Assembly (NCBI GenBank): GCA_022843545.1
Contig: JALHNL010000006.1
Location: 1-64,000 of the forward strand
Length of the DNA: 64,000 nt
Direction of reading: 5' to 3'
Source: Phycisphaerales bacterium
Lineage (GTDB): Bacteria; Planctomycetota; Phycisphaerae; Phycisphaerales; UBA1924
Shown here: positions 32,401 through 50,360 of the stretch, one piece after another
How positions within the stretch are numbered: position 1 is the first letter of the stretch
How the letters are laid out: each line of letters begins with the position of its first letter
Position numbers and translations under genes: made by a program
The notes under the pieces: generated by a model
What the model was told of the DNA's origin: nothing
What the model saw: the letters and a program-made list of their open reading frames with translations, nothing else
Databases searched by the model: none

Positions 32401-35400
32401 GAGACTCCACACGCAGCGACACACCCGAATAGAGCTTCACCGGCGGCGCCGCGCCCGCCCCCGTTCCCTTCTGGATGCCCTGGGCCGACACGTACACCCG
32501 GCTGCCGCCGGTGGCCAGTTCGTCTTCACGCTCGGCATACTCGAAGAACTCGATCAGGCCCCGCGTCTCACCCTGGTTCATCGCCTCCGCCGCCGACCAA
32601 CCCACCGACCGCCTCTCCACCAGCAGAAGCTCATCGAGGTACGACTCCGCGATTTTGTCGCTACCTCGCGGCGGCGGCACCAGACTGTCCGGCACCGCCG
32701 GGGGCGTGGGGGTTTGGCTGGCATACTTGGTGGCGAAGACGTTGCGGACCGTCTTGTAGACATGCTGCACGCCCAGCCCGCCCGAACCGCCGCCCGAGGC
32801 CACCATGCGCCCGTCGGGCCCGCGCTCCACCGACCACCGACGGTCGCGGAGCACATACCCCGCGGGGTTCATCTCCACCACCCGGCGCGAGATCTGCCCC
32901 TCGCGCAGCGTCGGATCGCCGGAGTTCTGGGGCGTGGGCATCGTCAGCAGTGGATGCTCGAAGGGTTCCGGCTGCAGATCGTTCAGCCGCTCCGGCCGCT
33001 GCTCCTTGGGTCTGATCTCATCAATCACGCTGATCCAGCGGGACTTCTGCATGTCCGGCGCGGCGACGAGGCTGCGCTGGATGGTCACTTCGCCATTGGG
33101 CCAGCCCATCGATGCCTGCCACCAGTACGGATGCGCGTACACACTGCGCATCGGATTAAGCATGGACTGATACGTTCCTGGTGTCGCAGCCGCCGGGATT
33201 CCGGACCCGTTCGGGCTGAAGTGAGCTTCTGGAGGCGGGGCCGTGATCCGCGAGATCCGAAACAGTCGTTGCACCCCACTCGCTTGCCTGATGGCCACGC
33301 CACCAACGACCGACCACGTCCCGCTCGTCATAGCCCACACCTGCGCCGAGTCTGGCTTCAGATAGCCATACTGACTGTCCACAAGCGCTTCTGTGCTCAC
33401 CGGCGGAAGCCAGGCCGAAGACTCAAACAGCAGCGAAGCGAACGGCGCGATCCGATCGTCCAAGTGCGTATCTGTGTCCCAGAACCCCATCGGCCGAGTC
33501 TCACCGTCCGACGTGTGCGTCACCCATTGCGAGGCCAACGCCTCCAAGGTCAGTCCGGAGAGCGACGCCGGCTGAGCCACACCAGGAATGCCCGCCCACC
33601 CGCGCGAAGTCAGGTCGGCGATGTCCTGATCCAGGAACACCATGCGCAGCCAGGGAATGGTGTTGGGCACGCCCCGCCCGGCCCGCTGATACGCCGCTTC
33701 GTCATACACGAACACCTTGTTGTCGGTGATGACGGAGCCGGCCGGCGGCTGTTCGCCCGGGGGCTGACTGGCTTGCGGCTCCCATTCTGGCCTCGTCCGT
33801 GACTCGGTGCGGATCAGAATCGGCGGGCCGCCCGCGTGCCGCATCAGCGAGTTGGAAACCAAGTCGTTGCTCGGGATGTCCAGGGTGTCGAAGAAGATCT
33901 GGGTGTTGTCGGGAATCAGCGCGTTGGTCACGTAGTGATACCGGATCTCGTGCCGCCACTTGCGCAGCTTGGCCACCGTCGCGCCCATCTCCGGGCTCGC
34001 GTCGCTCGCGGCCAGCCTCTCGATCGGCGCGTCGGCCGCGTTCAGCCAGTCGGTGCGGAACTGCCCCCCCGCCACCGCGCCGTCCACGTAGGTGTTGATC
34101 ATCTCGGCGCGAGCCAGATCCGCCTCCGAGAGTTGGTCCTCCGGATGCGCCTCATCATGCCGATAGGCGTAAATCCGGTCGATCGCCAGGAAGCCCTGCA
34201 CCCAGCGCCGCGCGGGGTCGTTCACGTCAAACTGCGCAAGCCAAGTGCCCATTTCCTCCATCGGCCAATCCGCCTGCTTTCGCAGGGTCAGGCTGGCATC
34301 ACCCGACATCGGATCGGTGTCGTCCTTGGGAAAGAACCGCCGGTACGAGTACACGAGCGTCCACGCCACGCCATCGGGTGTCTTGAGGCGGATGGACCGG
34401 ATCGCTCCCTTTACCGGCGCGTCATCGAACACCTGCACGTACTCTGCGTGCGCCTCGCGCTGCGGCGCATCCAGCGGGTTCTCGTGAGGGCGCACCGGCG
34501 GCGGCGTGTAGTCCGCGAAGTGCCGCCTCACGGGCATGCACGCCATCTCCGCCGCGTCGCCCGTTTTCGTCTCCATACGCACGCACAGGGCGTAGCGCGG
34601 AACGCCCATGCCGGGAGTGGCCGGGTCGTTCATCCAGGGATGCACCCCACCGAACCCCGTTTCCCTGGGCACAGGCGCCAGGGCGAGCCGCTGGTCATCG
34701 CTGTCCGCGCCGATGGCATCCACATACTGCGTCCGCGTGAACGGTCGGTCGTGGAAGCTCGTGAGCGCATGGGGCCCACTCGTCCCGGAACTCTGAAGCA
34801 CACCCCGATTGAAGGTGCCCGGAGGCACGTCCTCGTTGATCGCCACGAACGTGTACTTCAGTTGGCTGTCGTACAGGTAGACCTCGTACTGCGTCGGCGG
34901 CACGCTCCAGCGGGCCACGTTCTGAGGGTCGCTCGCGGCCAGCGCGGGATCTGATGCCGGAGGGTCGGGTTCATCCAGGTCCACCGTGCCGGGCAGCACG
35001 AACTGCCCGCCCAATGGCACGATGCGGGCCCGGAAGCGGGGCGGCGCCTCGTACGTCACCGTTGGCGCGCCGCCCACCTGGGGCGCAGGATGAATCACCT
35101 GTTGAAACGGGATGCTGTGGTGCGCGTCAAGCCAGAGCCAGATCGTCCGCGGTCCATCCCCAGTCACATCCGCCATCGCCGCATCCAGCAGCAGGATCGG
35201 GTTCTCGCTGATCATCCACCCTTGGCCGGTCCAGTCCCACCAGCGATCCGGCCCAGGCAGCATCCGCACGCTGTTCAAGGGCGAGTCAAACCCCGCATGG
35301 ACGCTCGTGTTGTGCGAGCGCGTTCGGCGCAGCCTAAACGTCGAACTGCCGTACGGCAACTCCAGGTCAGACACCTGAACCAGGGGCACACCGGTCACCA

Positions 35401-36064
35401 GATCCACCACGCCGTCAAGCGTTTCGCGCGTGGCATCCTGCCACCAGGCCGAGGCCCCCTCGGCTGATCGTGACACCAGCGCCACCGACCCACCGCCGAT
35501 GGTCGGCGAAGGCGGCAAAAAGTCCCCCGGCGCCGGACTGGCGAACAGGTTCAGGTTCAGCCGAGATCCCGCGGGCACACCCCAAGGACGGGCCAGCCCG
35601 GCGCCGATCCCGCCCGCGCCCGCGTCTGGGCTTCGGTGCTCGGCCACGCGCACCACCAGGGAACTCCAGCACGCGCTCATGATCGCGGGCAGCGTCGCCA
35701 GCGACGGATGCGGCTCCTGCCACGAGGAGAACGGGAGCGCGTACGGCCGCGCAGGGCTGTCGTCCGTGTCGCTCCGCGTCACCCGCCATCGATAGAAACG
35801 CTCATCCCCCACTCCGTCCGCCACCGGCGGCAAGACCCGCCCCACCCCGCGCCACACCGCATTCGCTTCTCGCCCGACACTCTCCCCGATCCCGGGATTC
35901 ACCCGCACCAGCGGCGTGAAGTTGCTCATCCGTGCTGCAGAACGCTCAGGGTCATACAACTCCGGTAGACGGTCTGGCTCCTCCGGCGGATCACTACCCG
36001 CCCACACCGCACAGGCAAGGATAAAAAACGCTGATGCCCATACGGCCAAGAAGCGTGCGTGCAC
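26492..36064 (-). CDS. Giant secreted Rhs/YD-repeat protein with C-terminal nuclease-like toxin tip
   Basis: I place the start at a GTG at 36064 with GGAG eight bases upstream, giving a signal peptide (HARFLAVWASAFFILACAVWAG); a TTG at 36088 is the alternative. The protein has about 3,190 residues. The first ~1,850 are a large extracellular N-terminal part. YD repeats follow (FEYDARGNLLSDAQS, YGYDALDRLINTQTG, YVYDAWSRLVQI). The Rhs core (about 2,740-2,930) ends with GRWLQRDPNASG and RRDPQGLF. The last ~260 residues are the variable tip. Its end has GDRRRPDISYDTVNKRTG followed by ITMVLEVCNSET, which fits a PD-(D/E)xK nuclease pattern, then a Lys/Arg-rich tail. It is probably delivered to competitors and blocked by the next gene. 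Confidence 0.85.
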   Translation of the reverse strand: MHARFLAVWASAFFILACAVWAGSDPPEEPDRLPELYDPERSAARMSNFTPLVRVNPGIGESVGREANAVWRGVGRVLPPVADGVGDERFYRWRVTRSDTDDSPARPYALPFSSWQEPHPSLATLPAIMSACWSSLVVRVAEHRSPDAGAGGIGAGLARPWGVPAGSRLNLNLFASPAPGDFLPPSPTIGGGSVALVSRSAEGASAWWQDATRETLDGVVDLVTGVPLVQVSDLELPYGSSTFRLRRTRSHNTSVHAGFDSPLNSVRMLPGPDRWWDWTGQGWMISENPILLLDAAMADVTGDGPRTIWLWLDAHHSIPFQQVIHPAPQVGGAPTVTYEAPPRFRARIVPLGGQFVLPGTVDLDEPDPPASDPALAASDPQNVARWSVPPTQYEVYLYDSQLKYTFVAINEDVPPGTFNRGVLQSSGTSGPHALTSFHDRPFTRTQYVDAIGADSDDQRLALAPVPRETGFGGVHPWMNDPATPGMGVPRYALCVRMETKTGDAAEMACMPVRRHFADYTPPPVRPHENPLDAPQREAHAEYVQVFDDAPVKGAIRSIRLKTPDGVAWTLVYSYRRFFPKDDTDPMSGDASLTLRKQADWPMEEMGTWLAQFDVNDPARRWVQGFLAIDRIYAYRHDEAHPEDQLSEADLARAEMINTYVDGAVAGGQFRTDWLNAADAPIERLAASDASPEMGATVAKLRKWRHEIRYHYVTNALIPDNTQIFFDTLDIPSNDLVSNSLMRHAGGPPILIRTESRTRPEWEPQASQPPGEQPPAGSVITDNKVFVYDEAAYQRAGRGVPNTIPWLRMVFLDQDIADLTSRGWAGIPGVAQPASLSGLTLEALASQWVTHTSDGETRPMGFWDTDTHLDDRIAPFASLLFESSAWLPPVSTEALVDSQYGYLKPDSAQVWAMTSGTWSVVGGVAIRQASGVQRLFRISRITAPPPEAHFSPNGSGIPAAATPGTYQSMLNPMRSVYAHPYWWQASMGWPNGEVTIQRSLVAAPDMQKSRWISVIDEIRPKEQRPERLNDLQPEPFEHPLLTMPTPQNSGDPTLREGQISRRVVEMNPAGYVLRDRRWSVERGPDGRMVASGGGSGGLGVQHVYKTVRNVFATKYASQTPTPPAVPDSLVPPPRGSDKIAESYLDELLLVERRSVGWSAAEAMNQGETRGLIEFFEYAEREDELATGGSRVYVSAQGIQKGTGAGAAPPVKLYSGVSLRVESQAAGEGLFEAQINADFVTPRTDGTNQFLVDAFPQPESVNASSLATLAADYRVSVTLVQRRAAPDVPPDSPDKPDPRAQPPVWSQTIGPPRKLRPGAGAPWYFPVQRQWFDDEGRVTWSAQGLVRDPITPGSSGSGGLDALILTYTRFHDAGASAGQPWHVIVDAPGNLEVKTRMPAEFNIDAPAGPRPSQPAGGDVWAEGGAEWVMVPAHPAGWPRLGPGEAGKWVSSFTYDDRGVIDAFKHDGRRYSRRTWLVMRDDYNKEVRADLWGRNLAKTNEPYLAREWIFNDLVSTNPSGGPTGGVHAARTVAVCEILTYGKKKPEGQPQIRARVEWNNPVIVGTAQNAAADSAAWQATVTATGTGEDPPCEVTAKPYVDLTATRLGIDWTGRLKRAELLEWVPGFGWSDLGSKEINDLGEVYRELELDGSVTRIVKNPLGQELRRYAGTRDVDWPVIADPGAPQPAEPDFNMVLTDRTEYGSLPNDAWLPIISRKYTSSPSWARDFYNRFPGTTDPLPARPDAADLLRRDADGIPQVTTYDWRMRPVRVDSYVRNTAYSGTGEPFIRVGTTLTFLDHLSRERLVVTLGEGEGLVIPDAFNPAMLSESGGQPADQEWDFVALARAYLNGTASPVRPISVTSTEYQPDGTICERRTYDVGWQGTSGTPPYHAEYTYQGWSGQEVYSRRPGQPVRVSELDGLGRVKVLREVVLRAGGGSVDEAYELGRHETEYDWLGNVVETRRWERVKSDGVDELSPANAVCWRTWNWYDLKNRLIATADAGRDSNLPRPDAPQTGEPPVTAGSVFSASAGPERVPLWIYELNKAGQRIAEVSPAEVRTTNVYSGSGRLIRKVENDGPGVTEAAKRVTEYGYVVGKLAGIKVRLNEGSGTGSWQTTRVVHEAEVVEPFEGGYRLASKTRKAVGTMHMAAAPWAAPRDLYESDIQSIGANPNLKLRYTFDGLIAERIDARGVAFRYFYDDQRRLSRIQVGHYTSILETSPASFIPGMPAFTRLPGQPDDTINTIDYTYDASGRLQRVLATSPGAGIDDVVADTLFEYDARGNLLSDAQSIGKPADLGAVFPMNTPVVSYDWSGFVPTDPSGVDLGHERLVAMHYPPAHPNAPPRTVHMRYGATADGQPADPASGWMSRLSGMTTSVDDGLTTPVQHPVATFLYASSSRRLGTTLGADIVGYRLDDPIANSSGGDLLPGVDRLGRLAEMTWKGHDWSYPQGGTPAVMYGARYGYDIAGNRTSTRLTLRPQAGSPHTASQPRSSTYGYDALDRLINTQTGAMLETEPALDGAPIRTDAWSLDILGNWVGGAGPNSPPGRLVTGDHDAREATSLTHQVDNTNLIQEFRKQHGTVETIQEAGYDLAGNLSFDGKYAYVYDAWSRLVQINHCNVDQQLITVPPSGAPYLFAPTLVGSLVKRYTYDGLGRLVRTYSPWPSAELAVAGLVRSERFYYDGSRRIQEVVIDPIDAQATLPPWDPESGLPEPPPMMISGPFAPLDPSNPISAASLSWRELWMMTYHGVSTKLSREYVWGPGDSVHAGVDELLVQYDAWRDRPQWVLQDGSGDVVGVVKQTAGPVDHDNNAVTPERVAGILAGQYTYDAYGAVLSAVLYNGGHEPVFAGHKGLFFDNLDEHFALQGGEGLGATPIWLSLSHLLLGEREHRLVPWADPVYHVRNRAMMPRHGRWLQRDPNASGQVVAGETEPDIVDPEFAHADSFSLHAYVDGNPWTRRDPQGLFFSGGLIGTTIGMWNSATDMVNTGHMGNMMSFALDAMFRAHQMNALIDFELIADWSVPDEALSFHTSNVEETQRAILGMFWGDMARAGDELMSGVPSSPFEVFASTAGDDDIRQRERYIAALFKGRPQHGSAEHWRTMRREAMALAKKSNVDLNSIRINRRLPGDRRRPDISYDTVNKRTGARITMVLEVCNSETTSHAKEKWEKAPPGVKARDPVRVPKAAPGKGAPGKRRR
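27308..27847. repeat. Parent Rhs core segment repeated in both displaced cassettes
   Basis: The core DNA of the full-length Rhs gene is found again at 25123-25555 (matching 27308-27740) and at 23556-23722 (matching 27681-27847). All copies are in the same orientation, which permits homologous exchange of toxin tips. Confidence 0.85.
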
Positions 36065-36884
36065 GGTGATTACTCCAATCGCAAGCAACAGTAAAGTGCG
36101 GAGTCTGATACTCAGATCCAGTCAGCGACGCACAACGGGCATGCGCCACGCATACACACACCTAAGCATCGTCATTTACGAAGAACGCGTGCGAGGCTAA
36201 CGGACCTGTCGTTCACACGCAAGCGTCATTTTTCATTTTTATTTGTCTTGAACACATCGTGCCTTGGCTTTTGCACTTCGTTGTCTCCTCTTCGGGCGAC
36301 GATCAATGTCCGCAACTCCCGCACTCCGCTTGCTTTGCGAACCACTCCCGGTCCACGATTCGCATCGACTTCGCGCAGCGCCCCACCTACTCGCGGGAAC
36401 CTGTGTAGGGTGCCTCTCGCTCCTTTCATTGCCGACTCGTGCCTGCATGCACTGTGCAGATCCTGTCTCAGCCACACGTTCAGACACGCACCTTGCAGGT
36501 CACAGGCTAAAGCGTCACACACACTGCACCACTGCCCGATCCACTCTTTGCCTTCGTTCTATGCGATCGTCATGGCCACGATCGCTCCATCGCGTAGCCA
36601 CGTCAGTTCTTCAGCACGCAGCGTCGGACAAGCACCATGGTTGATCACCCTCTTCCGCGCGGACCACCTCGCCAGTGCGAGCCACGCATACACGACTCTG
36701 CTCCAGCCCACCCGGCAACAGTTCGCCGTCGGCGGAGTACACAAATTCGAGCACCGCACCGACAGATCCGCACCACACAGCCGGCCACCCTGCCCCGCGA
36801 ATTCACGCGGCATCGCCTCGAACTCAAGGCGAAGTGCCCTGGCGGCGCGTTCGCATTCGTGCAGGTCAAGCACACGGAGGTGGT
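36065..36884. other. Degenerate intergenic stretch, no intact gene seen
   Basis: Upstream of the Rhs gene the DNA is locally AT-richer (for example 36225-36250), which could hold the Rhs promoter. I see no clear -35/-10 pair. Short frames on both strands have no recognisable domain and composition typical of chance reading frames. The stretch borders a broken glycosyltransferase gene, so it is probably decaying accessory DNA. Confidence 0.45.
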
Positions 36885-37708: not shown

Positions 37709-40700
37709 TCAACTCACTGCCGCTGTGCGTCCGTTAGGGTGCGGAGCCGGTTGCTGGTTAGCGCGGGTGGCGAGGAAGGCCAGCTCCTTCTCGAGGACCT
37801 GTGGGTCACGGCAAACATGGAACAACCACTCGCCGTGCTCCCTGGCGTTGTTCACGGCTCCCACCCAGCGTCGCGCAGCATGGTGCTTCGCCGTGGTTTG
37901 AGCATCTTCAAAGCCCTTGACCTCAAGCAGGATGTTCAAGCCTGTGGCGAGGCGCACGATGAAATCCGGCTCGTAGGTGTGGTCCACCCCTTGGAACTCG
38001 TAGGGAATAAGTAGGCCCAGGTGGTCGTTGCGAACGTATCGCTCGACCATGTCGGAGGCCTCGATCCGGAAGGCGACGCTTGATTCCCAGGTCTTTGTAT
38101 CGAGCACTACCTGGTTGACGTGGCTCTTCTGCGTGCCGTGGCACGGCCGAGTCGTAGTGAAATCCACCTCGGCGGATGTGCCGATCGGCTTGTACCGGTT
38201 CAGAACGGGCAGGAGCGGAGGCTCTCCCTCCGCATCGTCCGGGACGATGGCATCGCACATATAGCCAACCATGCGACTGACGTACTTCTCCAGCCCGAGC
38301 TCTCGCTGGTCCACGTTTTTGAAGTCGACCTTCCTGCGCACGTACTCATCCACGAAGCGGAGAACCTGCGGGAACAGTTGGTGACGCGACTGGAGGCGCA
38401 TCACGCGGGCCTTCGCGTCCGAGCGGCCCCCGGCTTCGCCCACCAGATGGGCCACGACCAGTCTGGCGATCTGAAACTTGATCGCTTGTAGGTGCGTGTG
38501 CTGGTAATACTGCTCCCGATTCTGTTCAGTGAACCCGAACGGTGCAGTCTGAGACGCGGTCCCCTCCTGGTATCCCACCGTGGGCAAGAGGAATGTGGCC
38601 GTGGGTTCCAGGTTGGGCTCGATGACGAGCGGGTCCATCGCGCCCACGTCGCACTTGATGAGGTTCTTCTTGAGCGCGAATGCATAGCCCTCGACAACGG
38701 GGAAGCGAAGCTCCAACGCCGCTCGCTCGGGCATCGCCCTCACATGGTTCTTTGGCTTGTCCTCCGGCTGCTTCTGGTTGACGGGACGGCCCTTGAACGG
38801 GATCACCGTGAACGGAATCCCGTAGACATCCACATACTCCTCGGTCAGCAGGCCCGTCGTGGGGTCGGGTGTGTAGTCCATTCGACGCAAACCACGGCCG
38901 ACGACTTGCTCGCAAAGGAGCTGACTTCGGAACGCTCGGAGGCCCAGGATGTGCGTGACGTTGTTGGCATCCCACCCTTCTGTCAGCATGGCCACCGAAA
39001 CTACGCAGCGGACGTGTTCCCCGGGCTCGCCGCGTTTGCCGACGGTGGAGACCACCTTCCTCAGCGCCTCCGCGGCATCCTTCTTCGAGACCCCGGGCTC
39101 CTCACTCTCAGCCTTCGAGAGCAGATCTGTGTCAATGCGGATGGTCCGCTTGCTCTTCGCAGTGTTCTGGAAGTAGTCCGGAAAGATCACGCCGTGCCCG
39201 TAGGATGTTCGCTGCTTCGCCTTGCTCCGCGAGCGAGGAGCAGATTCCTCGGCCTCCGCTTCACTATCATTGTCTTCCGCCTCTGCGGCTTCAGCGATGT
39301 CTGCTTCGGTGACAGATTCGACTGGCTCTTCACCGCTGATCTTGCGGTAGAAGACCTCGGCAATGTCCACGTTGTCACACACGATGATCAACACCGGCGG
39401 CACCTGCACCTGGCCGGGTTTGGCCTCCAGGATGTACTTGAATCGCTCGACCCACTGGCCGGCAAGCTGCTTGAGCGCTGGCTCAGCGTCGCGGTAGACC
39501 ACATCGGGCTTCGGCTTCCGGCCCTTGCCCGGCAGGAACTCCGCTGGTTCCAGGTTGTCGCGGATGTTGTCCCAGAGCTTGAAGTACTTCGCTTCGGGTC
39601 GGCCCGTGGTGTCACTAACCGGCAGGCGCGGGATCTTCACGATACCGCTCTCGATCGCATCGACGAGCCCGAAGTCGCTCACGAGCCACGGGAACGGGCT
39701 GTTTTCGACATAGCCGCTACCGCCGATATAGAACGGCGTTGCGGACAGATCGACGCACTGGGCGATTCCCGGCTGCGTCTGCCCGGCTGCCTTCCCACCG
39801 CCCGCGTTGTTGAGCTTGTCCAGGCCTTCAATCCAGACGGTTGCCTCTTCGTTCTCAGCCTGCGCCTCCTTCAGAGCCTCCGGAGAAAGCGACTTCTTCA
39901 ACTCATCGCTCAGCGGGGCGGGTCGGTAGCAGTGGTGCGCCTCATCGTTAAGCACCATGATCGGCATGCGCTCGTACAGATCGCCCAGCACACGCTTTGC
40001 GAAAGCCTCCGGTGTCTCCGCTCCCTTGTTCACCACGGCGTAGCTTTTGCCACCCTCCGCGTGTTCGCTCTCGGGCGCGAAGCGGTGCCAGTTCTCGACG
40101 AGCACCTTGCCGTTCTGCATGAGTGGCCGCATGCGCACCGGCACGATGTCGAACGCCGCGTAGTAGTTGTCCGGCCGCTCCGGGCGCAGAACAGCGAGCC
40201 GCTCCTTAACGGTCAGGTTCGGGCAGCACACCAGAACAGCATTCGGAAATCGTTCATCGCCGGGGTTCCGGCCTCGGTTGCAGAACGCCCACGCGATCAG
40301 CATGGCCATCACGACGGTCTTCCCCGACCCCGTGGCCATCTTGCACCCGAACCGTGTCAAGGGGAGCAAGTCGGGATTCGGCGGTGCATCGACGAGCCGC
40401 CCAATGTCTGCCGCTGGGAACTGCGGATTGAAGCGTGGCTTCTTCCCACTGCGGAGAATCTCGGCCAGATAGATGACGGTCTGCACCGCTTCGAGCTGGC
40501 AAAAGAACAGTCGCCTCGGACGGTCGTGGGAAGCCCAGAAATTGAGCAACTCTCGCGTGACTGGCGTCACCCCCTCGAAGTTGCTCGCTCGCCACCGGGC
40601 CACATCCTCGCGGATCTGGTTGACCATGTGCAGGTCGTCCTGGCCCTCGCTCAGTTCCAGCGTGAGCTGTCCCGCCGCGTCGCCCGCGCTGTCCTTCGTC

Positions 40701-40852
40701 TTGTACCAGTACCGCGACGGCCGACGCCCCGCGATCTTCGAAGCCTCGCCCGTCGTCCGGTCGTATTGCCAATGCACCGACGGCGCTTCGTACGGCGAGC
40801 ACAGAATGGGCTTCTCGACCGGCTGAATCGGAGTGTCTGTTTTCGCCGCCAT
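37709..40852 (-). CDS. Type III-like restriction endonuclease subunit (SF2 helicase plus PD-(D/E)xK nuclease)
   Basis: The 1,047-residue protein has Walker A ATGSGKT (173-179), the DEAD-like box LNDEAHH (302-307), motif III DLSATPFYIGG and the C-terminal helicase motifs SVAMLTEGWDANNVTHI and QVVGRGLRR. Near the C-terminus (about 960-985) EPDFIVRL ... LLEVKGFED is a PD-(D/E)xK nuclease site. This is the architecture of Res subunits, which translocate on DNA and cut in complex with Mod. AAAGGA precedes the ATG. It is the last gene of a three-gene operon (Mod, DAC-like, Res) with 9-16 bp gaps, so it acts with the methyltransferase encoded first. Confidence 0.9.
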   Translation of the reverse strand: MAAKTDTPIQPVEKPILCSPYEAPSVHWQYDRTTGEASKIAGRRPSRYWYKTKDSAGDAAGQLTLELSEGQDDLHMVNQIREDVARWRASNFEGVTPVTRELLNFWASHDRPRRLFFCQLEAVQTVIYLAEILRSGKKPRFNPQFPAADIGRLVDAPPNPDLLPLTRFGCKMATGSGKTVVMAMLIAWAFCNRGRNPGDERFPNAVLVCCPNLTVKERLAVLRPERPDNYYAAFDIVPVRMRPLMQNGKVLVENWHRFAPESEHAEGGKSYAVVNKGAETPEAFAKRVLGDLYERMPIMVLNDEAHHCYRPAPLSDELKKSLSPEALKEAQAENEEATVWIEGLDKLNNAGGGKAAGQTQPGIAQCVDLSATPFYIGGSGYVENSPFPWLVSDFGLVDAIESGIVKIPRLPVSDTTGRPEAKYFKLWDNIRDNLEPAEFLPGKGRKPKPDVVYRDAEPALKQLAGQWVERFKYILEAKPGQVQVPPVLIIVCDNVDIAEVFYRKISGEEPVESVTEADIAEAAEAEDNDSEAEAEESAPRSRSKAKQRTSYGHGVIFPDYFQNTAKSKRTIRIDTDLLSKAESEEPGVSKKDAAEALRKVVSTVGKRGEPGEHVRCVVSVAMLTEGWDANNVTHILGLRAFRSQLLCEQVVGRGLRRMDYTPDPTTGLLTEEYVDVYGIPFTVIPFKGRPVNQKQPEDKPKNHVRAMPERAALELRFPVVEGYAFALKKNLIKCDVGAMDPLVIEPNLEPTATFLLPTVGYQEGTASQTAPFGFTEQNREQYYQHTHLQAIKFQIARLVVAHLVGEAGGRSDAKARVMRLQSRHQLFPQVLRFVDEYVRRKVDFKNVDQRELGLEKYVSRMVGYMCDAIVPDDAEGEPPLLPVLNRYKPIGTSAEVDFTTTRPCHGTQKSHVNQVVLDTKTWESSVAFRIEASDMVERYVRNDHLGLLIPYEFQGVDHTYEPDFIVRLATGLNILLEVKGFEDAQTTAKHHAARRWVGAVNNAREHGEWLFHVCRDPQVLEKELAFLATRANQQPAPHPNGRTAAVS

Positions 40853-40861
40853 GCGCGTCCT

Positions 40862-42118
40862 TTACCCGAACTTGAAGACCTGCTTCACCGACTCAGGTTT
40901 ACCATCACCACAAAACCCTGTGACCTCGCCGTCGGCTGAGATCTTCACGCCGAATCCCAACTTGGCCACCGCTTTTGCCGCCGCCTTGCGGGCACCGGCG
41001 TCGCTTCCCGAATCCACCGTGACGATCGCCCCAACAGCGAGGACTCTACCGCGGTGATCAAGAACGAGCGCTCCGTCGATCGCCGCCATCGCCTGCCGCA
41101 AGCGCCGTGGCAGATTCCTAAACTGCCTTTGCTTGTCGGAGAGTAGTTCCGTCAGAACTCGAGCCTTGGCAGAATCGCCTCTGGGGAGCCGGTCAGGGTC
41201 CTTTACCAGCGATGGCAACAAGCTGGCGTGCTTTTCCATCATCACGCCAATGCAGCCGCCACTTCGACCAAAGGACACGTCCAGGCACGTCTCGTAGATG
41301 CAGCGCCGCAGTTCCTTGTTCGACACGTTGTGCATCTGCCCAAGGATGGGCTCGTGAACGAAGTGCCGCCACCGTCCACGACGCCAGGCAAACACGAGGC
41401 ACTTCTCGCGGTACAGGAGAATCTCGCCGTTTCGATTCAGGGAGACGACGACGCGTTCGCCGGTACACCATTCCGACAGCGTGCGAGAATACTGCGGGGC
41501 AAACGAACAGGACGCGTTCGGATAGAGATCGAGGAACTCGGAAATGAACCCGTCCGACGAAACGGCGATCATCGTCTCAATGCTGCCTGTGAGGACCTTG
41601 CCGAAGTCCTCTCCCCAGATCGTGTCGAGAGTCACCCCTTTCCCACGGGCCCTTGAGTCCAGACCGAAAACGACCGCGATCCGATGTCCCTCGTATGTTT
41701 GCGCGGCCAAGCTCTCAAGTTCGCCGAGCACACGGAGCAGGAGCGCTTCATTGGGATACCCGAGGGTGCGCACGACGGTGCGTCGCACCGCCGCAGCGGT
41801 GGCTTCTGGGAAGAAGAACGCGGCATGATGTGGGGAAATGCCGGCGAGTTCCGCAAGGAACTGGCGTGCAAGGTCGACCTCGGACTTGGAGAACGGCTGA
41901 ACTCGTGTGACTTCGAGCAGGTCAGGCACTGTCGTGGTAGATCTCAGCCCGAGCGCATTGGGGGCGAGCTTGACGACCGTTCCGCGCCCAGAGGTAGCGC
42001 CTTTCACGCCGGACTGCAGTTCTGCGCCCGGCAACAGGGGCACGAGCTCCCGCTCGACGATGGTTCGAAGCAGGTCTGCGGGAATCGTCTTGGATGATGG
42101 TGTCGCTCTGCGGGGCAT
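40862..42118 (-). CDS. Protein with DisA/DAC-like C-terminal domain inside the restriction operon
   Basis: The 418-residue protein ends in a domain (about 330-415) with the diadenylate cyclase pattern: AMAAIDGALVLDHRGRVLAV (DGA at 348-350), then GARKAAAKAVAKLGFGVKIS and ADGEVTGF. In active DisA/DacA enzymes the second motif is GTRHRAA; here His and the second Arg are replaced (GARKAAA), so synthesis of c-di-AMP is doubtful. The central part (NRNGEILLYREKCLVFAWRR, then GRWRHF) recalls the predicted DACN sensor domains found with DAC domains in conflict systems. It has no membrane segments. It lies between Mod and Res with short gaps, and probably senses a nucleotide or regulates the complex. 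Confidence 0.6.
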   Translation of the reverse strand: MPRRATPSSKTIPADLLRTIVERELVPLLPGAELQSGVKGATSGRGTVVKLAPNALGLRSTTTVPDLLEVTRVQPFSKSEVDLARQFLAELAGISPHHAAFFFPEATAAAVRRTVVRTLGYPNEALLLRVLGELESLAAQTYEGHRIAVVFGLDSRARGKGVTLDTIWGEDFGKVLTGSIETMIAVSSDGFISEFLDLYPNASCSFAPQYSRTLSEWCTGERVVVSLNRNGEILLYREKCLVFAWRRGRWRHFVHEPILGQMHNVSNKELRRCIYETCLDVSFGRSGGCIGVMMEKHASLLPSLVKDPDRLPRGDSAKARVLTELLSDKQRQFRNLPRRLRQAMAAIDGALVLDHRGRVLAVGAIVTVDSGSDAGARKAAAKAVAKLGFGVKISADGEVTGFCGDGKPESVKQVFKFG

Positions 42119-42134
42119 GGGCGATCAACTCCGT

Positions 42135-45100
42135 TCATGCGAGTCTGTGAACGCTCATGACCTCGTTGCCCCGCGGATCGATTACCTTCACGGCTGCGCA
42201 CTTGTGCTTGCCGGCAGGGAACGGCAGGCTGGTCGTGCTGCTGAAGGCCTCGAACCGCTCAGCGTCGATCGGCCCGTCCTTGCCGTTGAGGGCCTTCTGC
42301 AACTTCTCCCATGCGGACTTGTCCGGGAAGAAGGCCTGCGTGACGCAGAACGTCCGGCCGTCGTAGTCGCCATCGAGGAACCATGCGGCGACCTTGCTCG
42401 CGCCCGTCGAGTTGATGCTGTTGTCCACGGGGTTGTAGACGTCCACGCCCTCCATCGTGACCGTGTACTCGGGCCTGCCGTCGCCATCCTTGCGCGAATC
42501 GACGCGGACGCGGGGCTGGCCGAAGACCGTGAACAACTGCCCGCCGCCGGGTGAGACCGACTCCTTGAGAAGCCCGTTCATGCCCGGGTTGATATCGGGT
42601 CGGATGTGCGCGAAGTGGATCTTGAGCTTGGGGTGCGGTGCTCCTCCACCCTCATTCAGGATCGCCTGCGCCTCGGCGGTGAAGTTGAAGGCGGCGACCA
42701 CGAGGTGGTCATACAGCCGTCCAGCGGGCTTGATCAGTTCCTCGACCATCTTCGCGGTCACCGGGCCATACTGCGGACCGAAGACGACGCCGACATTGTT
42801 CGATCCGTCTGGATCACGGTCCTCATCGCCAACGGCGACCCAGCGACCCTCGGCATGGAAACCGCTGGACTTCCCGCTCTCGTAGAGGGGCTCCAGACGT
42901 GTCCACTTCATCTGCTTGTTGTTCAGGAATCGCACGCCGTCCGCGCGAAGGAAACGGATCATCTGGTCCAGGTACGCTCCCACGTTGGCGACCTCCAGCG
43001 ACCCGGTCGCCTCGACCATCCGCACCTCGAACGTGTCGTTGATGTCCTCGGGAGCGCCGCCGAAATCGGGGCCGACGTCCATCGCTTCGCCCAACGTCAT
43101 TTCCGGTGGCTGCACGGCCTCGACGCTGAACGGTCCGCTCACCCGCGTCACGCCGCGGACCACCTCGGGCTGGTCCACCAGTTCCTCCTGCTCGGCGCTG
43201 GCGGCGATGCACGCGTTCACCTCGTCCATCTTCGCCCGCCACGCGGCCCGGTACGCCGTCACCGCCTCGGCCAGCCCCTTGGGCCAGTCCGTGTCGGTGT
43301 CGAACGGCATCTCCCAGTGGTACCAGCCGTCGAACTTCGCATCGACGGTGTACTTGACGCCCTTCTCCCGGTTGTCCGGCGGCAGCACCCACCGCCGGCG
43401 GTCGGCATCCGTGACGGAGCGTTTGCCTTCGTCGCGTTCCTTCTTCGTGAGCTTCGCGGCCAGCCTCGTCCGCAGAGAGGGATCCTTCTTGAGCACCGCC
43501 GCGAGCTCCGCGTTCGCCTTCTTGAGGGCCGCGTCCAGCAGCGGCTCATGCTTGGCAAAGATCGGGTCGAGCGCGACGTTCTGCGCGATGCTCTTCAAGG
43601 TGATATGCGGCACGGTCTTGTAGTGGAACCCGCTCGACGGATCGGGCACGTCCTGCCCGCGCGAGTCCTTCCGCGTCGCCTTGGTCTTGTACTGCTCGAA
43701 CTTCGCCGTCAGCAGCCGCTGGCGGGCGATCGCCACGGCTACGCGGCTGGTGTCGGTCGTGATCCACCGCCGACCCCATTGCTCGGCGACGTAGGCCGTC
43801 GTCCCCGAGCCGCAGGTCGGGTCCAGCACAAGGTCGCCAGGGTCGGTGGTCATGAGCATGCAACGCGTAATGACCTTTGCATTCGTCTGAACTACGTAGA
43901 CCTTCGGGTCGCCGTACCCTCCCGATGCAGTGTCCAGCCAATTGTCTGAAAGCGGGAAGTACGGAAAGTCCTCCGTGTACCGGCGATAGCTTAGCGTAAC
44001 GCCGTAGTGTTCAAGTCGGTCAGCGCTAGCCAATCGAGCAAATCCGGCTGCGTTCGTTTTCCAGCCACCGCGACCGGGCTTGAAGGCGATTCCGGCATGA
44101 TCGACAGGCATCAAGGTCGACTCACTCGACGATGTAGAGGTCAGCGGCGAACGCCGATAGATCAACGTGCCGGTCGGTAGTCCTTCCGGAGCGTCTTCCT
44201 CGTTTTCGAGCATCTTTCGATGCTCGCCAGTCGGCACGCGAACGAAGTCGTAATTGACCCAGCCGTAACCCTCGCGGCGCTGGAACAAGGGTCGAAATCG
44301 CGTTTTTGTGATGTCGCGTACGAACCAGAGAAGATAGTCGTTGGTTGGAGGAAGAAAATCGCCAGATTGGGTCGTCGTAGTGCGAAACGCGACCATGCCA
44401 CAGAAGTTTGGCGCACCAAAGATCTCGTCCATCACCGTCCGCACTCGGTGCAGGTTCTCATCGCTGATCTGCACGAAGATGCTGCCAGTGTCAGCCAGCA
44501 GTTCCTTCGCCACGACGAGACGATCCCGCAGGTACGACAGGTACGAGTGGATGCCCAGATGCCAGGTGTCGCGATAAGCCCGCACCATCTCCGGCTCGCG
44601 GGTGAGGTCCTCCTGCTTGTCCTTCACATCGCGCTTGCCGACCTCGGGCTGGAAGTTGCTGGCGAACTTGATGCCGTAGGGCGGGTCCATGTAGATCATC
44701 TGGACCTTGCCCGCGAGGTCCTCGCGCCGGGCCAGCGACGACATGACCTGGAGCGAGTCGCCCAGGATGAGGCGGTTGGCCCAGTCCACATCGTGTCGGT
44801 AGAACTGGACGGCTTCGTGATATTCCTGCTCGGGGTCGGCGAAGAGGAACTTGGATGCATCCTGACGCGCCGCTACCTTCAGAATGGCCTGGGCGCTGAT
44901 CCGCTCGTGGATGTGAAGCGCGACGGGGTCTACGGCGAAACCGGGCTTCTCGCGCTTTCCGGTCCATTCCAGCCACGGCTCCTGGATGCGGAGGGCCTCG
45001 GCGAGGATTCGGGCCTCATCGTCGGTGATCGGTCCGCGCCGGGCCTTGGCCAGCAGTTCGGGCAGTGCGTCGGGCTTGCCATGCTGGTCAAACCGCAGCA

Positions 45101-45332
45101 CCGGCGGCAGGTGTGGGTTGTAAGCGTACTGGGCCTTGGGGATGACCGGGACGACACCCTCGGCGGCGATCTTGGCAGGTGGGATGTTGCGGCGCTTGGC
45201 GCTGGGGTGCCGAATGTCGCCCATCGGCAGGCCATCGCTGCCCGCCGCGGGCGATTTCCCCTTGCTGCTCGTCTTGCCGGACTTCTTTGCCACAGGTGAC
45301 TCCGAACCACGTTTCTGCGCCCGTCCGGCCAC
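42135..45332 (-). CDS. Type III-like DNA adenine methyltransferase (Mod)
   Basis: The 1,065-residue protein has the beta-class order of N6-adenine methyltransferases. DPPYGIKFASNF, the catalytic motif IV, is near residue 216; LVLDPTCGSGTTAYVAEQWG, the AdoMet-binding motif I, is near 505. The region between holds the target recognition part, and the long C-terminal extension (about 560-1065) is typical of large Mod proteins that pair with Res. The N-terminus is Lys/Ser-rich and starts at a GTG at 45332; an ATG 36 codons later is possible. It is the first gene of the operon and diverges from the NurA-like gene across 45333-45556. Confidence 0.9.
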   Translation of the reverse strand: MAGRAQKRGSESPVAKKSGKTSSKGKSPAAGSDGLPMGDIRHPSAKRRNIPPAKIAAEGVVPVIPKAQYAYNPHLPPVLRFDQHGKPDALPELLAKARRGPITDDEARILAEALRIQEPWLEWTGKREKPGFAVDPVALHIHERISAQAILKVAARQDASKFLFADPEQEYHEAVQFYRHDVDWANRLILGDSLQVMSSLARREDLAGKVQMIYMDPPYGIKFASNFQPEVGKRDVKDKQEDLTREPEMVRAYRDTWHLGIHSYLSYLRDRLVVAKELLADTGSIFVQISDENLHRVRTVMDEIFGAPNFCGMVAFRTTTTQSGDFLPPTNDYLLWFVRDITKTRFRPLFQRREGYGWVNYDFVRVPTGEHRKMLENEEDAPEGLPTGTLIYRRSPLTSTSSSESTLMPVDHAGIAFKPGRGGWKTNAAGFARLASADRLEHYGVTLSYRRYTEDFPYFPLSDNWLDTASGGYGDPKVYVVQTNAKVITRCMLMTTDPGDLVLDPTCGSGTTAYVAEQWGRRWITTDTSRVAVAIARQRLLTAKFEQYKTKATRKDSRGQDVPDPSSGFHYKTVPHITLKSIAQNVALDPIFAKHEPLLDAALKKANAELAAVLKKDPSLRTRLAAKLTKKERDEGKRSVTDADRRRWVLPPDNREKGVKYTVDAKFDGWYHWEMPFDTDTDWPKGLAEAVTAYRAAWRAKMDEVNACIAASAEQEELVDQPEVVRGVTRVSGPFSVEAVQPPEMTLGEAMDVGPDFGGAPEDINDTFEVRMVEATGSLEVANVGAYLDQMIRFLRADGVRFLNNKQMKWTRLEPLYESGKSSGFHAEGRWVAVGDEDRDPDGSNNVGVVFGPQYGPVTAKMVEELIKPAGRLYDHLVVAAFNFTAEAQAILNEGGGAPHPKLKIHFAHIRPDINPGMNGLLKESVSPGGGQLFTVFGQPRVRVDSRKDGDGRPEYTVTMEGVDVYNPVDNSINSTGASKVAAWFLDGDYDGRTFCVTQAFFPDKSAWEKLQKALNGKDGPIDAERFEAFSSTTSLPFPAGKHKCAAVKVIDPRGNEVMSVHRLA

Positions 45333-45556
45333 CGGTGGTCGGCGCGTTGCCTTTGGGGGTGGTCGGGAGCCAACTCCGCACTGAAAGTGTACCCGAACGC
45401 TTTACGATAGGTGGGGCGTGTCGCGGCATCCGCAACCCGCTGAGCGCTCGCTCTGGGCGACCCCCATCTGTCGCGGGTCGGACTCGTGCGAGCACAGTAC
45501 AATCTGCAACAGTCCAATCGCGGCCGCCCCTCGCGATTGGTTCCGGAGCGGCCCAC
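45333..45556. promoter_or_regulatory. Divergent promoter region between Mod and NurA-like genes
   Basis: These 224 bp separate the starts of the two divergent defence transcripts and should hold both promoters, allowing joint control. I do not see a clear consensus promoter or operator palindrome. GGAG at 45545-45548 serves the NurA-like TTG start. Confidence 0.45.
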
Positions 45557-46723
45557 TTGATCGACCCCGAGAGCATCTCTGCCCTGCGTTCTGAACTCGC
45601 CACCAGCATCCAAGGCGATCGGCGGGTCCTTGACGAGCTTCGGGAGGATGTGCGTCCGCTGAAAGGGCAGACGCGGAAGATTCAGCCCCGGAGCACCACA
45701 GCAATCTCCCTCGTCGGGACCGACGGCGGCAACAACAAGATCGAGTTCGACCCGTTCATGGTGCAGCTGGTGCGGGTCGTGGACTCGAGCAACAACGAGT
45801 ACTGCCTGGAAGTGGTGACGCCGACGACTGATCGGATGGCGGTGAACGCCCGACACTTCGACGCTGCCGGCGCGCCCAAGACGGCGCTCGGCCAGATGCT
45901 CACCAAGCTGCTGCCCGCAGGCGAGCGGTCGATTTGGAACGTCACGTCGATGATCCCTAAGCCGCCACAGCCGGGCGCGAAGATTGAACCGATCTCGCCG
46001 AGCTGGGTACAGGTCTATCGGGAGCTGACCGAGTGGGCAGTGTTGTTGAAGCTCGTCAGCGAGCTTCAGTACGGATCGGACACGGTGATCATCGCGGACG
46101 GCAACCTCCGCAGCAAGGTGTTCCAGGGCGAGCTCTTCATCAAGTACAGGCAGCTTCTCAACGACGCGATTGAAGCGCAGAAGAAGAACAAGCGGAACAT
46201 CTATCTCGCGGGCGTTTCCAAGGGCAGCAAGGTGCTCCAGCGCTATCGCCTGGCAATGGGTATCGAAGGCGTCCTTCGGACGGACTATCCCGCCTATGTC
46301 GAAGTGCCGCGAGAACTGGAGGAGAAGTCCTACGTGTGGGGCGAGTACGCCCGCGGGGACGAGGAGGCCGGGAAGCTCGGGGGCGAGGCGAACAAGTTCG
46401 TCGGCGGGAAGATGTTCTTCGTGAAGTTCGGCTCACGGCCGCACGACCCGATCTGGCCGATCGACATCTTTATCCCGCAGGCCAAGGACGCGCCGACGGT
46501 GTTGGGCTACATGCTCGCGGATGCGATCGACGGCTTCCCGGTACCGTTCTATCCCCAGTGCCTGCAGCGTGCTCACGAGAACGCGGCGCTCGTTGATTTC
46601 GACATGACCATCTTGCAGGACGAGGTCGTCCGTTCGGTCAGGGGGATCCTCGCCGAGCACGCGGGTCGCCTGGATGAGATGTCCCTGCAGCCGAGCGACC
46701 CGGCTGCTGCCCGCTATCGCTAA
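45557..46723 (+). CDS. nurA: NurA-like nuclease
   Basis: I place the start at a TTG at 45557 with GGAG eight bases before it; upstream in-frame codons overlap the divergent gene. The protein has 388 residues. The NurA/RNase H-like fold is indicated by LVGTDGGNNKIEFDPF (D56), TVIIADGNLRSKVFQGELF (D181), IYLAGVSKGSKVL and a C-terminal GYMLADAIDGFPVPFYPQCL with the following His. These acidic and basic positions match the metal-binding sites of NurA 5'-3' nucleases. The HerA-like ATPase gene starts 17 bp later, the normal partner, forming a DNA-processing complex. Confidence 0.82.
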   Translation: MIDPESISALRSELATSIQGDRRVLDELREDVRPLKGQTRKIQPRSTTAISLVGTDGGNNKIEFDPFMVQLVRVVDSSNNEYCLEVVTPTTDRMAVNARHFDAAGAPKTALGQMLTKLLPAGERSIWNVTSMIPKPPQPGAKIEPISPSWVQVYRELTEWAVLLKLVSELQYGSDTVIIADGNLRSKVFQGELFIKYRQLLNDAIEAQKKNKRNIYLAGVSKGSKVLQRYRLAMGIEGVLRTDYPAYVEVPRELEEKSYVWGEYARGDEEAGKLGGEANKFVGGKMFFVKFGSRPHDPIWPIDIFIPQAKDAPTVLGYMLADAIDGFPVPFYPQCLQRAHENAALVDFDMTILQDEVVRSVRGILAEHAGRLDEMSLQPSDPAAARYR

Positions 46724-46740
46724 GACCCCGGAGGCCACCC

Positions 46741-48849
46741 TTGCAACTGTTCCCCAAAGACAAGACGATCGGCATCTTCCGTGGCTTCACCGAAGGCGGG
46801 CTGGAGTTTCACGCTGACCTGGCGCTGCCGTACCAGAGCAACTTTCAGAACATCCCGATGCACGGGCAGTTGGTTCTTGTGCAGCTAGAGACGCCCAATG
46901 AGGCGGTGCTCGGCCGGATCACGTCGCTGTCCTCCGACGGTCGCCTGACCGGTGCTGCTGGTGAGGATTTCAACATTCGCGCAATGCGAGAGTCACGCAA
47001 CGTACCTGAGCAGCTGCGCGAGGACTACCTGAAGTACCGCGTCGATATTCGGGTGCTCGGTGTGCTTCGAGTGAACGGAGACAAGAAGCTCACGTTCGTG
47101 GCGTCGCACCGCCGTCTGCCGCATGTCGGTAGCCCCGTTGCATTCGTCGACGATGTGATCCTGAAGGAGTTGCTCGGACACAACACCGACGGCGCGACCA
47201 TTGGGCACTACGCGATGGGCGAGTACGTGTTCACGGGTGGACGGACCGCCGTTGCCCCGGACGAGTGGGTGCAGCACCTGAGCCCAGAGCTGAACGTCCG
47301 CTTCCTGGCAAGCAGTCTCGTTTCTCGCCGCACTTTCGTGTTCGCCCGGGCCGGATTTGGCAAGTCGAACCTCAACAAGCTGCTTTTCTCGGAGCTGTAC
47401 CGCGCTGATCCGAAGGTGACCAAGCGGGGCGGCAAGCAGGTGCCCGTCGGCACGATCATTTTCGATCCCGACGGTGAGTACTTCTGGCCCGACGACAAGG
47501 ATCGGCCCGGATTCGCCGACGTCCCGCACCTGAAGGACCGGCTCGTCATCTTCACGTCTCGGAAGATCGAGAGCAAGTACTACATGTCGTTCGTGGCTGC
47601 CGGCGTCAAGCTGGACATCCGAACGCTCAGCGCCAGCGACGTGATCTCGCTCGCACTCTCTCCGGAAAAGCAGGACCAGCAGAACGTGGCCAAGCTGCGG
47701 TCCGTCCGCGGGCAGAACTGGTCCGATCTCGTCGACCTGATCTTCCAGGATGGCAACTCGGCGAGCGTCGACGAGGTGAAGCGGCTGCTCAATGCTCGCG
47801 ACATGAGCGATATGGAGGTATTCGCCGCCCGAGCCAACCTAACGCGCATCGTGAACATGCTCCACGATCCGGCGAGCCGCCTCATGGATGCCCTGCTGGC
47901 CGCACTCAAGGAGGGCAAGCTCTGCGTCGTTGACGTCTCCCAGCTTCGCGGCGGACCTTCGCTCGTTCTGAGTGGGCTGATTCTTCGACGGATTTTCGAC
48001 CGCAATCAGGAGGAGTTCACGAAAGAGTCACCGCAGAGCATCCCGACCATCGCTGTCGTCGAGGAGGCACAGTCTGTGCTCAACGACAAGGCCTCCGCCG
48101 CTCAGCCGTACATCGAATGGGTCAAGGAAGGCCGCAAGTACGACCTGGGTGCGATGCTGATCACACAGCAGCCCGGCAGCATCCCAGGCGAGATTCTGAG
48201 CCAGGGCGACAACTGGTTCATCTTCCACTTGCTGTCGGCCGCCGATCTCCGCTGCGTGAAGGGTGCCAATGCCCACTACAGCGACGACCTTCTGAGTTCG
48301 CTGTTGAACGAGCCCATTCCTGGGCACGGCGTGTTTTGGAGCAGCGTGGGGGGCCGCCCGTTCCCGATTCCGTTCCGGGCGATGCTCTTCGAGGGCCTCT
48401 ACAAGACCGTCGACCCGACATACTCAGCATCGGCGGTGGACACATTCGCCAGTCGGCTACGCGCAAAGCTGCTTGGCGAGGTTCAGCAGGCGGTCGCAGC
48501 AAGCGGCAACGTCGCGACCGCTGACTCATCCGGCGGTGACAGCGAAACTGATCGAAGCACCCAGGCCCCGGACTTCCTGACTCTGTCTCGCCAAGTTGCG
48601 CTCTCGAAAGTGCGAGCGGACGCCGACTTGGTGAAGTCACTTGAATCAGGAAACGCGACTTGGGGCGTGGTTTGGTACAAACTCAAGGATGCGCTTCCCG
48701 ACACCATCGAGGACCGTGATGAGCTGGCGAACCAGTTGGTTCCAGAGTTTCTGGACTGGCTATTCGGCAAGGGCGAGTGGCATACCGAGAAGCGCATGAC
48801 CAAGAAGGGAGAGCAGAAGCCATTTATTAAGAGGGGCAAGGGCGGCTAA
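46741..48849 (+). CDS. herA: HerA-like DNA translocase ATPase
   Basis: The 702-residue protein starts at a TTG preceded by GGAGG. An N-terminal HAS-barrel-like part (about 1-175) is followed by the HerA/FtsK ATPase core: Walker A ARAGFGKSN (202-210), TIIFDPDGEYFW, and Walker B TIAVVEEAQSVL, then the arginine-finger region. The C-terminal ~130 residues are an additional helical part ending in a Lys-rich tail (MTKKGEQKPFIKRGKGG). HerA hexamers pump DNA and stimulate NurA cutting. In bacteria such pairs are common in phage-defence loci. Its stop overlaps the convergent methyltransferase stop. Confidence 0.88.
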   Translation: MQLFPKDKTIGIFRGFTEGGLEFHADLALPYQSNFQNIPMHGQLVLVQLETPNEAVLGRITSLSSDGRLTGAAGEDFNIRAMRESRNVPEQLREDYLKYRVDIRVLGVLRVNGDKKLTFVASHRRLPHVGSPVAFVDDVILKELLGHNTDGATIGHYAMGEYVFTGGRTAVAPDEWVQHLSPELNVRFLASSLVSRRTFVFARAGFGKSNLNKLLFSELYRADPKVTKRGGKQVPVGTIIFDPDGEYFWPDDKDRPGFADVPHLKDRLVIFTSRKIESKYYMSFVAAGVKLDIRTLSASDVISLALSPEKQDQQNVAKLRSVRGQNWSDLVDLIFQDGNSASVDEVKRLLNARDMSDMEVFAARANLTRIVNMLHDPASRLMDALLAALKEGKLCVVDVSQLRGGPSLVLSGLILRRIFDRNQEEFTKESPQSIPTIAVVEEAQSVLNDKASAAQPYIEWVKEGRKYDLGAMLITQQPGSIPGEILSQGDNWFIFHLLSAADLRCVKGANAHYSDDLLSSLLNEPIPGHGVFWSSVGGRPFPIPFRAMLFEGLYKTVDPTYSASAVDTFASRLRAKLLGEVQQAVAASGNVATADSSGGDSETDRSTQAPDFLTLSRQVALSKVRADADLVKSLESGNATWGVVWYKLKDALPDTIEDRDELANQLVPEFLDWLFGKGEWHTEKRMTKKGEQKPFIKRGKGG

Positions 48850-50000: not shown

Positions 50001-50011
50001 AGGCCTCGGGA

Positions 50012-50360
50012 TCAGATCGAGAACGTTCCCGTTCCGCCACCGCTGGAACTCGACCCGCTCATGCTGTCCGAGTTGCTGCCGGACGGGGAGGACGCCCCGG
50101 ACATCGACCCCGAGGTCGAGAACGACGACGACCCGGTGGACTTGCTCCCGGACGATGATGCGGTGCTGGACGGCCCACTGCTCGATCCGGACATCGACCC
50201 CGATCCCGATCGGAAGCCGGAACCAATCCCCGAGCCAGACCCCGACGCGGATGTTGCGCCGCCCGACCCGGAACTCTGGGAGGGGTCGGGCACATCGTCG
50301 TCGAGCCAACGTCTGGCGGACCTGCCCTCACCCCCCTCACCCCCTCACCCCCACACCAGC
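50012..50360. repeat. Low-complexity tract (Gly/Ser or Asp/Pro codons) and short C-rich repeat
   Basis: On the minus strand the region reads as alternating Ser and Gly (GSGSGIGSGFRSGSGSMSG) from a GTG at 50293, with a stop at 50012. On the plus strand it reads as Asp/Pro repeats (DPDIDPDPDRKPEP). At 50327-50355 a CTCACCCC unit repeats three times. Which strand, if any, is translated cannot be decided. It lies directly upstream of the methyltransferase start. Confidence 0.5.

Follow-up and report, generated by a model that had tools for sequence, protein, structure and literature searches.

A probable tandem diadenylate cyclase-fold protein encoded between the modification and restriction genes of a Phycisphaerales bacterium

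Introduction

Canonical diadenylate cyclases (DACs) form a face-to-face pair as dimers. An association of DACs with CBASS was noted by Galperin 2023, as cited in PMC13092281, which also describes DS-2, a DefensePredictor system composed of a phospholipase, a cGAS and a DAC, and reports that defence by DS-2 is lost on changing two predicted catalytic residues of its DAC. For Panoptes (mCpol-2TMbeta), a guard logic based on nucleotide depletion has been proven (PMC12657230). Like the family described here, Panoptes ties a diadenylate-type nucleotide logic to CBASS-like genes, and Cap15-type 2TM proteins are encoded near several relatives of our protein; in contrast, the Panoptes cyclase is unrelated (Cas10-type), and the restriction operon treated below has no 2TM effector. 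CapK-CapS (PMC13373217) likewise accompanies a variety of immune operons as an accessory gene set, but it consists of a kinase and a transcriptional repressor, and both folds and mechanism differ from those considered here.

The subject of this report is a gene in a 64,000-nucleotide stretch of the genome of a Phycisphaerales bacterium (the window; contig JALHNL010000006.1, positions 1–64,000). A sequence-only reading had placed a DAC-like domain with an altered catalytic motif between the modification (Mod) and restriction (Res) genes of a restriction operon, had linked it to defence, and had proposed that it senses or binds a nucleotide instead of making c-di-AMP. In the literature searched, which included few subscription papers, a DAC-like gene inside a restriction operon is not described. 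While the link between DACs and CBASS is already known, the family itself is uncatalogued, and its probable tandem architecture and its place inside restriction-modification (RM) operons are new.

Results

The proposed placement was borne out: an open reading frame lies between Mod and Res, separated by 16 bases from the former and by 9 from the latter, all three genes being co-directional (Table 1), and the same order (Mod-X-Res, X being the DAC-like gene) recurs in three other genomes. As Res scores above the cut-off of NF046055 and Mod is adjacent, the module indeed resides in a restriction operon, a type III-like system of the BPTD_3080 family. The three quoted motifs, DGA, RKA and KISADG, were found at the positions given for them. 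A chance reading frame is rejected by the recurrence of this gene order and by 31 loci from several phyla, described below, in which the motifs are shared.

Table 1. Features of the Mod-X-Res operon, with positions in the window
Feature	Position	Strand	Description and evidence
DAC-like gene	40862..42118	-	418 aa, ATG start; N-terminal domain, DAC-I and DAC-II; ORF, AlphaFold2, Foldseek
Mod, type III-like DNA methyltransferase	42135..45332	-	Pfam N6_N4_Mtase; PADLOC MTase_III E=5.3e-165
Variable target-recognition region of Mod	about 43251-44500	-	Low identity in the comparison with G102
Res, BPTD_3080-family restriction endonuclease	37709..40852	-	NF046055, 953.6 bits, cut-off 800
N-terminal domain, residues 1-120	41759..42118	-	Helix, four strands, two helices in the AlphaFold2 model
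DAC-I, residues about 120-262, probable degenerate DAC-like domain	41333..41761	-	Isolated-domain model, Foldseek
YEG in DAC-I, invariant	41687-41695	-	Family alignment
DAC-II, residues about 263-410, DAC domain whose site is remodelled	40889..41332	-	Foldseek; profile vs DS-2-type DAC E=7e-8
DGA, residues 348-350, as in canonical DACs	41069..41077	-	Motif check; D and G invariant
RKA, residues 377-379, at the RHR position	40982..40990	-	Profile register; first Arg retained
KISADG, residues 392-397, at the SEE-type position	40928..40945	-	K, S, D and G invariant

The operon adjoins genes for a NurA-like protein (45179-46723, plus strand; a weak Pfam match) and a HerA-type ATPase (46741-48849, plus strand), with a second DNA methyltransferase gene nearby (48846-50309, minus strand). 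These three genes (45179-50309) are conserved together with Mod-X-Res in a genome of another genus (G102), so that the whole region, roughly 12.5 kb long, resembles a single defence island. It is flanked by two very long open reading frames on the minus strand, 26492-36088 (3198 aa) and 51263-57757 (2164 aa), which, judged by eye, have an RHS/YD-repeat-like appearance. Elsewhere in the same genome, on contig 3 (L155, 5573-13885), a CD-NTase-like gene lies beside that of a SAVED protein, and DUF3375 and an SbcC/SMC-like ATPase come next; this gene content points to a CBASS-like pair and a Wadjet-like set.

The AlphaFold2 model of the DAC-like protein, based on a 31-row alignment, reached a pLDDT of 91.3 and a pTM of 0.90. 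By Foldseek it matched 58 PDB chains at E ≤0.001, and the best 50 of these 58 are all diadenylate cyclases (best E 1.4e-5); an unrelated fold, the finding that would have refuted the sequence-only reading, is rejected on the same best 50 of 58 matches, and no confident match of that kind occurred. Judged by the model, the C-terminal domain has the proposed DAC fold. The DAC-like part is longer than the last 85 residues to which it had been confined, as the DAC domain (DAC-II) begins near residue 263 and is preceded, at residues 120-262, by what is probably a second, degenerate DAC-type domain (DAC-I). When residues 120-264 were folded alone (pLDDT 88), four chains were matched at E ≤0.001, all of them diadenylate cyclases (DacM, CdaM), with the next match only at E 0.68; in addition, the order of helices and strands is identical in the two halves of the full model. 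From these two observations we read the protein as an N-terminal domain, DAC-I and DAC-II, with two predicted DAC-like domains in tandem. TM-scores to diadenylate cyclases are moderate (0.4-0.6, and about 0.4-0.46 for the four chains matched by DAC-I). Because direct profile alignment of DAC-I is weak, both with canonical DACs (E 0.07) and with DACNH, the tandem claim rests on structure.

For the window protein, no match was obtained in Pfam, PADLOC or the PDB sequences, none beyond chance in NCBIfam and none under E 0.001 among predicted viral structures, and the family as a whole is recognised by no library searched. The Pfam model of DAC (PF02457) matches 9 of the 31 family members described below, the best at E 2.3e-5 and 24.4 bits, which is below the cut-off of 27. 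An apparent fusion in the phage record MT837587 turned out to reflect nothing but an open frame continuing through the sequence upstream.

With canonical diadenylate cyclases (CdaA, DisA, DacM; PF02457) the family shares the DAC fold, DGA, one Arg of RHR and the Ser of SEE; unlike them, it has R-x-A in place of RHR and K-x-S-x-D-G in place of SEE, and carries a probable second DAC-like domain within the chain. The register was fixed by two profile steps, the first aligning DAC-II with the DS-2-type DAC (E=7e-8) and the second aligning the latter with canonical DAC (E=3.6e-7). Since GSRHRAG (canonical DAC), GSRYNSG (DS-2-type) and GARKAAA (DAC-II) fall into the same columns, the first Arg of RHR has been kept while the His and the second Arg have been lost. 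The change from RHR to RKA is thereby confirmed, and it is general, with R-x-[AKTNS] at this position in all relatives and K-x-S-x-D-G at the SEE position even in the distant ones. The invariant Lys K392 lies on a predicted strand, two positions ahead of S394, and from this location we suggest that it may compensate for the charge of the missing His and second Arg. DAC-I is devoid of DGA, and its equivalent of RHR is QYS in the window protein and WRH[SRT]A in several CBASS-type relatives.

In the alignment of the 31 sequences, 24 columns show no variation, including those of D348, G349, R377, K392, S394, D396 and G397, and by this measure the DAC-II site is remodelled, not decayed. Simple decay was rejected on the invariance of the site, and a plain DAC enzyme on the missing Pfam match together with the absence of RHR; that neither the His nor the second Arg is retained also argues against canonical c-di-AMP synthesis. 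A protein that is merely a structural or decaying remnant of a DAC, with its nucleotide function gone, would explain why RHR has vanished, why the middle domain has no DGA and why the Pfam DAC model is blind to the window protein. Yet many of the columns kept invariant across phyla are located at the site, and the differences between the DAC-like gene and its relative L016 at the three codon positions (0.30, 0.21 and 0.58) indicate constraint on the protein, so that a remnant is the least probable of the explanations considered, and very improbable in itself.

The closest described protein is the third component of DS-2 (NF053872 DS2_3_antiphage), which we located in E. coli and which consists of DACNG and DACNH followed by a DAC-like end, where IDGT and RYN are found. 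Its DAC-like C-terminal domain is homologous to DAC-II by the profile alignment mentioned above, has also retained only the first Arg of RHR, has S-x-D at the SEE position and YEG in the preceding domain, and is likewise associated with CBASS. In contrast to the window family, it is part of a 581-residue protein of DACNG-DACNH-DAC architecture, is without the invariant Lys before the Ser, and is not known from RM operons, whereas the window gene is placed between Mod and Res and other members of its family stand beside CBASS. NF053872 did not match the window protein and gave two relatives only 11.9 and 12.8 bits (cut-off 630), and neither DACNG nor DACNH was found in the window protein or among the matches of the 31 members. 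Only a weak, YEG-centred profile alignment (E 0.15) was obtained between the window family and the DACNG and DACNH part of the DS-2 protein. By these sequence comparisons, the DS-2 DAC is a distant relative that belongs to a separate family. One CBASS locus, in Vogesella alkaliphila (L030, 4114-9248), contains both a DS-2-type DAC protein and a member of the window family, encoded next to each other. The gene of another relative (L031) had no blastn match in E. coli, and a longer query led to the DS-2 locus instead.

With the single window protein as query, a first genome scan detected no relative. A search of 200 related genomes yielded five with a match besides the window's own, three of which retain the Mod-X-Res order, at 61, 46 and 38% identity. 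A scan with a family alignment (A2) as query, in which 84,980 bacterial and archaeal species were represented by a single genome each, resulted in 31 loci, two of which (L016 and L017) are apparently the loci of G102 and G171 again. They span Planctomycetota, Verrucomicrobiota, Myxococcota, Pseudomonadota, Bacteroidota, Bacillota, Actinomycetota and Acidobacteriota. CBASS genes (a CD-NTase with E1-E2, Cap15 or patatin) are found beside nine loci, four are in type I RM operons, two are Mod-X-Res, one has a Shedu-like gene and 15 have no tested partner. A relative on an Agrobacterium vitis plasmid also adjoins CBASS, and relatives on annotated plasmids are carried as hypothetical proteins. CBASS-type relatives are present in cultured bacteria, and Pseudomonas sp. 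KNUC1026 has one. Three planctomycetotal proteins (L104, L105, L107) constitute a more distant solo branch with the signatures GARTTAA and KISSDG; no defence neighbours were recognised around them. In a tree of 35 rows, the type I context requires four changes, of which well-supported branches make at least two unavoidable, and two of the type I rows fall among CBASS rows; the module has thus been paired repeatedly with different systems. The defence link that had been proposed for DAC proteins is supported for this family by its CBASS relatives, in line with the DS-2 precedent.

The location of the gene relative to its neighbours bears on the possibility of a Panoptes-like guard, which would make or hold a nucleotide, trigger defence when phage anti-CBASS proteins deplete it, and merely be housed in the defence island. 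Many relatives are solitary or on their own strand beside CBASS, in several loci a Cap15-type 2TM protein is encoded nearby, and the logic itself has been established in Panoptes. Against this, no toxic effector partner is constant across the contexts, and the window gene sits tightly within Mod-Res and not next to a 2TM gene; we consider such a guard improbable.

A canonical DAC is absent from 18 of the 31 host genomes, including all nine CBASS hosts (Fisher p 0.004 for DAC absence against CBASS, a value confounded by kinship and affected by the incompleteness of some genomes). For this reason a receptor for housekeeping c-di-AMP was dropped as a general explanation; in the window's own host, which has a canonical DAC, it would still be conceivable. 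The same absence would leave the signal free for immune use if the protein were a non-canonical cyclase, its re-engineered site making c-di-AMP or another messenger that drives CBASS-type effectors or tunes restriction. Such an activity would agree with the invariance, within the site, of DGA, one Arg, the Lys, the Ser and the Asp, with the WRH[SRT]A of several CBASS-type relatives, and with DS-2, whose DAC is also without RHR and, according to PMC13092281, needs its predicted catalytic residues. It is opposed by the loss of the DAC-II His and second Arg in every relative, by a DAC-I that has lost DGA and in the window has QYS instead of RHR, and by the RM operons with a DAC-like gene, in which no nucleotide-activated effector was recognised. 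This last result is easier to reconcile with a subunit or switch than with a producer of signals. We regard a cyclase as unlikely, though clearly less so than a guard or a remnant.

Among 384 genomes of the phylum, 50 have a BPTD_3080 enzyme that scores above the cut-off, and a DAC-like gene was found beside none of the 30 such loci inspected, so Mod-X-Res with a DAC-like gene is a rare form of these operons. Compared with G102, nucleotide identity is 0.94 for Res and 0.89-0.92 for the two ends of Mod, for the NurA-like gene and for the second methyltransferase, falling to 0.76 for HerA and to 0.63 for both the DAC-like gene and the middle of Mod, the expected site of its target-recognition region (protein identities: Res 97%, Mod 82%, DAC-like 61%). 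In this one pair, the DAC-like gene and the target-recognition region of Mod thus stand out as two islands of low identity with sharp borders in an operon that is nearly identical elsewhere, a pattern suggestive of exchange or diversifying selection, and their joint variation would fit a contact of the DAC-like protein with the restriction enzyme. Within the DAC-like protein, the N-terminal domain is the most variable part between the closest pair. In the remaining RM pairs this protein has diverged more quickly than the R subunit, and in CBASS pairs it is roughly in step with the cyclase.

Discussion

We have high confidence that the window gene encodes a defence-associated protein of DAC fold. 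Its probable role is that of a switch or sensor, controlled by a nucleotide and common to several immune systems. We favour a process in which the putative tandem-DAC protein works as an accessory module within the restriction operon, under the control of a nucleotide, and to this we assign a probability of roughly 0.5. This preference over a cyclase, a guard or a remnant derives from the missing effector in RM operons and from the 18 hosts without a canonical DAC. The accessory module is further supported by the DAC fold, the invariant site, the defence contexts, the repeated pairing, the tight operon gaps and the precedent of DS-2. Points against it are several CBASS loci in which the DAC-like gene is oriented convergently or divergently with respect to the CBASS genes and lies outside their operon, the 15 of 31 loci with no tested partner, and the moderate TM-scores and weak profile alignment of DAC-I; the mutation result for DS-2 would be equally compatible with a cyclase.

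As to the mechanism, the probable DAC fold of the middle domain implies that DAC-I and DAC-II of one chain may form a face-to-face pair, as canonical DACs do as dimers. The pocket would bind ATP or another, possibly cyclic, nucleotide, and binding of this ligand, or its loss during infection, might act as the switch for the partner enzyme or for the output of the module itself. A more specific version, which we put forward only tentatively, is a one-chain DAC pseudo-dimer that binds or makes a nucleotide, licenses or restrains type III-like restriction (type I in relatives), can be plugged into CBASS, and exists in alleles that vary with the target-recognition region. Of the interpretation offered by the sequence-only reading, the fold, the change of RHR, the place in the operon and the link to defence are all supported, and its proposal that the domain senses a nucleotide instead of making one may be correct.

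A messenger fold between modification and restriction genes would unite sequence-specific restriction with nucleotide signalling, two subjects that are usually treated separately. Should the middle domain prove to have a DAC fold, degenerate copies of DAC may also be present among the so-called DACN sensor domains.
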